Shown in pieces: positions 552 to 1,784 of a DNA stretch of 64,000 nt. Made by a program: the position numbers and the translations under genes. The stretch lies in assembly GCA_003635195.1 (NCBI GenBank), contig PYIY01000011.1, forward strand, positions 1 through 64,000. The letters are read 5' to 3'. Origin of the DNA: Candidatus Poribacteria bacterium. Its GTDB lineage: Bacteria > Poribacteria > WGA-4E > WGA-3G. The notes under the pieces are model-generated. The model had not been told where the DNA came from, did no database searches, and saw nothing but the letters and a program-made list of their open reading frames with translations. The first letter of the stretch is position 1, and every line of letters begins with the position of its first letter.

Positions 552-581
552 TTGCACTCTTACTTCAAACTATGCTATAAT
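552..581 (+). promoter_or_regulatory. Sigma-70-type promoter for the thioredoxin-like lipoprotein
   Basis: A -35 box TTGCAC (552-557) is followed by an 18-base spacer and a perfect -10 box TATAAT (576-581), about 50 bases before the start codon at 633. Seen in the sequence; not tested. Confidence 0.6.
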
Positions 582-632
582 ACCAATTACAGCGAAACTG
601 AATGTTTCCGCCAAATATTAAGGAGCCACTTC

Positions 633-1112
633 ATGAAAACATTGTTTAGAACGTGTGTTTTACTGATTATTGGTTTAGTCGCAATCTACATTGCCGGCTG
701 CGGTGAGGACGTTGAACAGGAGATGGACCCCGTAGCGTTTGACACGGAACCCACTCGCGAAGAGCCTTCTGAACGGGTTGCGGCCGATGGAAAACCCATC
801 ACAGCCACCGATGCGACCTTTGAAGCCGTTGTGTTGGAATCAGAAATGCCGGTCGTGCTTGAATTTTGGGCAGTTTGGTGAGGGGCATGCCGGTTCATGA
901 AACCGACCGTTGATGCAGTCGCATCAGAACATCGTGAAAATTTTATCGTGGCAAGATTGGATATTGATGATAACCCCAAGACCCTAAGAAAGTACGGAGT
1001 CCGTAGCATCCCGACTTACATTGTCTTCAGTGATGGCGAAGTCGTAGGGGAATTTGTCGGAGCAATGCCCGAAGCCGCTTTTGTCCAGCAAATCCTTGAT
1101 GCCTTGAAATAG
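633..1112 (+). CDS. Lipoprotein thioredoxin-like protein with in-frame TGA at the active site (candidate selenoprotein, U-x-x-C)
   Basis: The ATG at 633 follows AAGGAG with good spacing. Residues 1-23 form a lipoprotein signal peptide ending Y-I-A-G-C (Cys23 lipidated). The thioredoxin domain starts near residue 65. At codon 83 (879-881) a TGA stands exactly where thioredoxins have the first active-site Cys: F-W-A-V-W-[TGA]-G-A-C-R-F-M-K-P. The frame then stays open through the cis-proline motif S-I-P-T-Y and G-E-F-V-G to 1112, giving 159 residues if TGA is read as selenocysteine. There is no frameshift, and downstream conservation argues against ordinary decay. If TGA is a stop, the product ends just before the redox centre and is useless as a thioredoxin. 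Role if active: periplasm-facing or membrane-anchored thiol/disulfide exchange. Alternatives: a recent nonsense mutation of TGC/TGT, or a sequencing error. No selA/B/C/D genes are in the window. Confidence 0.75.
882..916 (+). promoter_or_regulatory. Possible bacterial SECIS hairpin after the TGA
   Basis: Directly after the TGA, CGGTT (891-895) pairs with AACCG (901-905) around the loop CATGA, 14 bases from the TGA. An outer GCAT (885-888) can pair with ATGC (913-916) across an internal loop. Size and distance roughly suit bacterial SECIS elements, but the loop G is not in the usual first positions. Inference only. Confidence 0.4.
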
Positions 1113-1178: not shown

Positions 1179-1784
1179 ATGGCGTATAGCAATTTTACCT
1201 TAGACACAGCACTGGAAGCGTTTGATTTAGAAGAGGTTGATGCTGCCGGTATCTTCGCTGCCAGTGAACCGGTGAAGCCGAGTGCGCTGCTCACTTCCGT
1301 GTTAGCGCGGAACATACCCTTAGCCCTTGCTGTGGGCACAGAAAAAGTCAAATCAGAGTTAATTGTCGCTAATGTCCTCGTTGAACTCCGTGAACAATTG
1401 GAGCACCGCGTCAGTTTTTTTTCAGGGATTGAGTTCAACGTTGATGCCGATGCCGGCCTTACCGGTGTGTGTGATTTTATGATAAGCCTCTCGCCACGCC
1501 AATTTTCTTTAAAGGCACCTATCATCATCCTTGTTGAGGCGAAAAAGGATGACTTCCTGGTTGGACTCGGACAGTGCGTTGCGGAAATGGTCGCTGCACA
1601 ACGTTTTAACGCGGAGGAAGGGAATGACATCGCTTGCATTTATGGGACCATCACATCCGGGATAGATTGGGTCTTTCTCAAATTGGTGGGAAAGAAACTC
1701 TGCATTGACATGGCTGCTTATCAAATCTCACAGTGTGACAAAATTCTCGGTATCCTCACAAGTATGGTTGAACAAAAGGCGTGA
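1179..1784 (+). CDS. Hypothetical PD-(D/E)XK nuclease-like protein
   Basis: A 201-residue soluble protein with no signal peptide. The ATG follows AAGGAG. Residues about 95-125 show a restriction-nuclease-like core: G-V-C-D-F-M then I-I-I-L-V-E-A-K-K-D-D, fitting the D...E-x-K arrangement of PD-(D/E)XK folds. Upstream, T-E-K-V-K-S-E-L-I-V may be the helix with the accessory acidic residue. Proteins of this shape are common, often single genes, in bacteria rich in mobile DNA; their cellular role is mostly unknown. It sits between the thioredoxin gene and rtcB on the same strand and could be cotranscribed. No partner methylase or toxin gene is nearby. The fold call is moderate and no function is claimed. 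Confidence 0.6.
   Translation: MAYSNFTLDTALEAFDLEEVDAAGIFAASEPVKPSALLTSVLARNIPLALAVGTEKVKSELIVANVLVELREQLEHRVSFFSGIEFNVDADAGLTGVCDFMISLSPRQFSLKAPIIILVEAKKDDFLVGLGQCVAEMVAAQRFNAEEGNDIACIYGTITSGIDWVFLKLVGKKLCIDMAAYQISQCDKILGILTSMVEQKA

Follow-up and report, generated by a model that had tools for sequence, protein, structure and literature searches.

A putative selenocysteine-containing thioredoxin lipoprotein in a genus of Candidatus Poribacteria

A 64,000-nucleotide stretch of contig PYIY01000011.1 from a Candidatus Poribacteria bacterium (hereafter the window) carries, close to its beginning, a TGA codon inside what otherwise reads as a thioredoxin gene. This raises the question of whether the codon terminates translation or specifies selenocysteine (Sec). 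The frame on the forward strand reads MKTLFRTCVLLIIGLVAIYIAGC... through this single TGA and ends at a TAG codon (1110–1112). In the initial annotation it was described as a lipoprotein thioredoxin with TGA in place of the first active-site Cys, followed by an intact domain including the cis-Pro motif; both the coordinates and this reading were confirmed. The readthrough product comprises 159 residues and consists of a putative signal peptide with a lipobox, followed by an acidic linker and the thioredoxin domain (residues 56–154). In a profile search this domain reached 91 bits against PF00085 (curated cut-off 23.5), and it matched solved thioredoxins at E=7e-30. Alignment to the solved thioredoxin 6zom placed the active site at W82-U83-G-A-C86 and assigned P127 as the cis-Pro, in agreement with an intact domain 3′ of the TGA.

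We are highly confident that 633–1112 encodes a selenoprotein, namely a thioredoxin that is predicted to be exported and lipid-anchored, with Sec predicted in its U-G-A-C active site. An I-A-G-C or similar motif following a hydrophobic stretch was also recognised by eye in the orthologues, and a location outside the cytoplasm is expected for this putative lipoprotein. The features of the locus and the genes of the Sec machinery are compiled in Table 1.

Table 1 Features of the Sec thioredoxin locus (window coordinates) and genes of the Sec machinery on other contigs of the same genome
Feature	Position	Strand	Evidence or remark
DDE transposase, C-terminal part, broken by contig end	1..507	+	PF01609 E=5.4e-6
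Promoter-like element TTGCAC-N18-TATAAT of the Sec gene	552..581	+	matched by eye
Ribosome binding site AAGGAG	620..625	+	kept in most orthologues
Coding frame of the predicted Sec thioredoxin lipoprotein, U83	633..1112	+	PF00085 E=5.7e-26; 17 genes in 16 genomes
Lipobox I-A-G-C, residues 20–23; Cys23 (699–701) expected to be lipidated	690..701	+	hydrophobic stretch before; by eye
In-frame TGA (UGA), predicted Sec83, first residue of U-G-A-C	879..881	+	TGA in 16/16 distinct orthologous sequences
Hairpin of the initial annotation, CGGTT-CATGA-AACCG, probably not the functional element	891..905	+	-3.3 kcal/mol
Candidate bacterial SECIS hairpin TGATGC-AGTC-GCATCA	911..926	+	loop begins 35 nt after UGA
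cis-Pro P127 of the thioredoxin fold	1011..1013	+	alignment to 6zom
Conserved downstream gene, 201 aa, ordinary TGA stop (1782–1784)	1179..1784	+	after the Sec gene in several relatives
SelA	C208:43623-44981		TIGR00474 E=3e-180
SelB	C194		TIGR00475 E=6.2e-103; SelB winged-helix domains
tRNA-Sec, anticodon tca	C194:5450-5539		directly downstream of selB
SelD	C123		TIGR00476 E=2.5e-109

Judged by its gene content, the organism has a complete predicted Sec machinery. A search of the same genome, as proposed in the initial annotation, revealed SelA, SelB, SelD and tRNA-Sec, and SelD itself reads ...VKCAGUASKL..., with a TGA at the catalytic position. In a survey of 58 genomes of the family, tRNA-Sec was found in 51 and SelA in 50. 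Genomes that carry the Sec lipoprotein gene and were covered by both surveys had tRNA-Sec in 15 of 15 and SelA in 14 of 15 cases, the only one without SelA being G022, which is 81% complete. The draft genome G035 (L113) contains TGA thioredoxins; SelA and tRNA-Sec were not found in its assembly, which probably reflects an assembly gap.

In relatives, genes for a TPR/matrixin-like protein, a PKD-thioredoxin fusion with Cys, a WD40-type protein (a label given by eye), a PKD-like lipoprotein, the Sec thioredoxin, the 201-aa protein and RtcB follow each other in this order. Most relatives have the gene for the PKD-like lipoprotein upstream of the Sec gene, and in many of them the PKD-Cys-thioredoxin fusion is encoded nearby. 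The locus varies, several genomes having no Cys fusion nearby and some having several kb between the genes for the PKD-like lipoprotein and the Sec thioredoxin. The product of 1179–1784 gave no match to Pfam or NCBIfam profiles. In the genome studied here, contig C189 carries at its end the fusion, the WD40-type protein, the PKD-like lipoprotein and an N-terminal transposase part (L093:13922-14498), and the window opens with the C-terminal transposase part followed by the Sec gene. Because of the gene order in relatives and the complementary transposase parts at the contig ends, the simplest reading is that both contigs adjoin at an insertion sequence and would represent one locus, split where the assembly broke. 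The Sec gene retains the promoter-like element and the ribosome binding site also found in relatives; indeed, the TATAAT and the TTGCA box occur at the same place in most orthologues. Genome G033 (L095:10049-11036) carries the Sec lipoprotein gene in two tandem copies, both with TGA.

Thioredoxins use their first active-site residue as nucleophile and the second Cys for resolution, and Sec at the nucleophile position should be more acidic and faster than Cys. For the poribacterial protein we propose that SelB and Sec-tRNA-Sec bind the mRNA hairpin at 911–926 during translation and that the UGA is decoded as Sec83. The protein would then leave the cytoplasm, be processed and receive its lipid at Cys23. 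The Sec83 selenolate would attack disulfides or other oxidised thiols of envelope proteins, and the mixed selenosulfide would be resolved by Cys86. Judged by gene order in relatives, the probable partner is the PKD-like lipoprotein encoded immediately upstream, because in the neighbouring paralogue this PKD-like domain is fused to a thioredoxin with Cys. Adjacency and fused paralogue together may point to a shared task.

Peroxiredoxins and methionine sulfoxide reductases are also served by thioredoxins. The protein might mainly act as electron donor to such enzymes in the envelope and not as disulfide reductase of the PKD-like lipoprotein, a reading that departs from the explanation given above in the substrate only. 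It gains some weight from the finding that thiol oxidoreductases make up the majority of marine selenoproteins (PMC2398784). However, no peroxiredoxin or Msr gene was recognised among those neighbouring ORFs that were read, in two relatives, and it is the PKD-like lipoprotein that recurs as upstream neighbour. We consider the electron donor role possible but rather unlikely, and the PKD-like lipoprotein remains our preferred substrate.

Decoding of UGA as Sec by the proposed mechanism would involve a SECIS element in the mRNA, and the rules applied for bacterial SECIS elements were a G early in the loop, a position 16–37 nt after the UGA and a stability of ≤ -7.5 kcal/mol (PMC13188914). The initial annotation had pointed to a hairpin starting 10 bases after the TGA. 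This hairpin exists at 891–905, but it is weak and poorly conserved: its stem is 71% paired across relatives and complete in only 2 of 16, and it was rejected as SECIS. Instead, the data support 911–926 as the better SECIS candidate, which fits the rules for loop (AGTC), stem and spacing (35 nt). Like the bacterial SECIS consensus model (PMC13188914 Fig. 2A) it has a 4-nt loop in which the second nucleotide is G and the next U, a spacing within the range of 16–37 nt and a stem of 6–7 bp. It differs from the consensus in its stability, which in most members just reaches or narrowly misses the -7.5 kcal/mol cut-off (family mean -6.84, calculated as simple hairpin energy). For 910–927, which includes one more pair-flank, RNAfold gave -7.5 kcal/mol.

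Conservation of this hairpin is restricted to the Sec genes. In 16 of them 97.9% of the cells are paired and 14 of the 16 hairpins are complete, whereas in 10 Cys paralogues the corresponding columns are 63% paired and the hairpin is complete in none (0/10). Most pairs are invariant, and L044 alone is changed on both sides (T-A to G-C). Synonymous codon identity amounts to 0.90 for codons +10 to +15 versus 0.65 elsewhere; the six-codon window from +11 ranks first among 149 for codon identity, with one upstream window (-20) coming near (0.93). Synonymous shuffles of this single sequence attain the observed hairpin energy in 4–8% of the draws, and the case for the SECIS therefore rests on the family. 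Folded as a whole, 870–930 was no more stable than shuffles (z -0.54), and an Rfam scan for SECIS gave only one sub-threshold chance match. When the full 60 nt were folded by RNAfold, the outer structures varied and the 911–926 stem was seen in most sequences.

Sec incorporation could also be real and directed by another structure, either a larger fold comprising both hairpins or 891–905 itself. Larger structures around the UGA region do occur in folds of some sequences, and the energy of 911–926 is marginal. Nevertheless, we regard this as improbable in view of the 71% pairing of the 891–905 stem compared to 98% for 911–926 and of the peak of codon conservation, which falls over 911–926.

Orthologues of the Sec lipoprotein gene were found in 16 of 59 family genomes (17 genes), all from one genus, and each has exactly one internal stop, which is always TGA. 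Fifteen other genomes of the genus account for 16 further genes, all with TGA at the active-site codon. In a phylum-wide search the full-length protein was confined to this one genus. The in-frame TGA has conserved coding sequence on either side. The initial annotation had considered a TGA exactly at the redox Cys unlikely to arise by chance, and indeed all 16 distinct orthologous sequences have TGA at the same aligned codon. It had also proposed to look for Cys or TGA at this codon in homologues: a wider set of 102 related thioredoxin domains from family genomes has TGA in 79, TGC in 12 and TGT in 11, with TAA or TAG in none. The picture of a single decayed copy among relatives that all have Cys was not found; the relatives all have TGA and the downstream domain is intact.

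These data bear on two further explanations. The gene could be a decaying Cys thioredoxin in which a nonsense mutation or sequencing error happened to produce TGA. Standard annotation would see a stop here, and the flank holds part of a transposase and the end of the contig. As all orthologues, independent genomes that here take the place of raw reads, share the TGA at this codon, however, neither sequencing error nor decay explains it; with TGA kept in 16 genomes, TAA or TAG never observed and the domain intact downstream, this explanation is scarcely credible and was rejected. We give equally little credence to a reassignment of UGA (to Trp, Gly or Cys) in the lineage or its reading by a cysteine suppressor tRNA: Cys is replaced by TGA here and codes with reassigned UGA exist in other bacteria, but TGA is the ordinary stop of the neighbouring gene (1782–1784), a complete Sec pathway including tRNA-Sec is present, and in SelD the usual Sec site is a TGA codon.

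The PKD-thioredoxin fusion with the active site C-P-F-C (e.g. L087:6314-7498) is about 55% identical to the Sec lipoprotein over the domain. Both occur in the same genomes and often in the same locus, but the fusion has Cys instead of Sec, is joined to a PKD-like lipoprotein domain and is devoid of the 911–926 hairpin. In a tree of 87 domains, built from a short alignment (103 columns) and with several weak forks, the Cys PKD-fusions form the sister group of the Sec lipoproteins (97/92). Sec domains of the dockerin type constitute a separate group together with one Cys member from another genus. Their hairpin is placed elsewhere, 17 nt after the UGA (GGNG-CCAGTTGT-CNCC; complete in 30 of 31), and one of its stem pairs occurs as C-G, T-G, T-A or A-T. 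The tree requires three changes between the labels Sec and Cys. Because of these label changes and the hairpins at different positions, the data suggest that Sec was gained more than once, a single gain with two losses being another possible history.

The dockerin-type proteins (L083:572-1177 and L083:1197-2600) carry a dockerin type I domain at the N terminus and, at the C terminus, a thioredoxin whose first active-site codon is TGA; some also contain Ig-like domains. In all, 63 TGA domains of this type were counted. Such genes are widespread in the genus, occurring in about 30 genomes (L053, L059, L067-L084, L102-L129). No description of dockerin-selenoprotein fusions was found in the literature searched.

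UxxC thioredoxins (Trx, PF00085) are listed among the selenoproteins (PMC13188914, table), and the GOS 'Trx-like 1' selenoproteins have a thioredoxin domain with Sec as the first residue of UxxC (PMC2398784). The view of the initial annotation that U-x-x-C thioredoxin-like selenoproteins are known from bacteria is thus borne out by the literature. The poribacterial protein shares the position of Sec with both groups but differs in being a predicted lipoprotein with an acidic linker, encoded in a surface-protein locus. It reaches 97.1 bits against TIGR01068, just at the cut-off of 96.8, and falls short of the TrxA/TrxC equivalog models. SaoT likewise has a thioredoxin-like fold with Sec in UxxC (PMC13188914, table), but its profile (NF040730) was absent among the NCBIfam matches of the poribacterial protein. 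Scores were also far below the cut-offs for TsoB (26 bits, cut-off 805) and TIGR02187 (PDO_seleno_TRX; 24 bits, cut-off 185). In sponge symbionts, SelA and SelB co-occur in most symbiont bins (PMC5649159); no paper on Poribacteria and selenoproteins was found in the literature searched. UxxC thioredoxin selenoproteins as such are already known, and it is their presence in this lineage of Poribacteria that appears to be undescribed in that literature.

Our analysis indicates that Poribacteria use selenium for redox chemistry of the envelope. Since standard annotation ends the gene at the UGA, databases probably lack the protein or contain it in split form. Beyond the single gene, we lean towards the view that the genus has an expanded and largely undescribed extracytoplasmic selenoproteome with several Sec thioredoxin subfamilies, including the dockerin fusions, with SECIS elements at differing sites of the domain and hence more than one replacement of Cys by Sec, and with Sec/Cys twins in one surface-protein locus. 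Such twins, together with several SECIS positions per domain, provide a natural comparison set that bears on when and why Cys is exchanged for Sec in bacteria.

A coarse scan of the window for other ORFs interrupted by TGA yielded no convincing candidate under a filter so strict that it discards even the known gene. Two further genes of this kind were observed in the genome studied here. A dockerin-type thioredoxin gene (G000:C79:69996-70205, L136) has seemingly lost its frame near the Sec site and may be a pseudogene. Furthermore, a Thioredoxin_2/Thioredoxin_7 domain with the motif W-TGA-G-A-C (L141:1372-2121; G000:C83:56336-56593) represents another candidate Sec protein.
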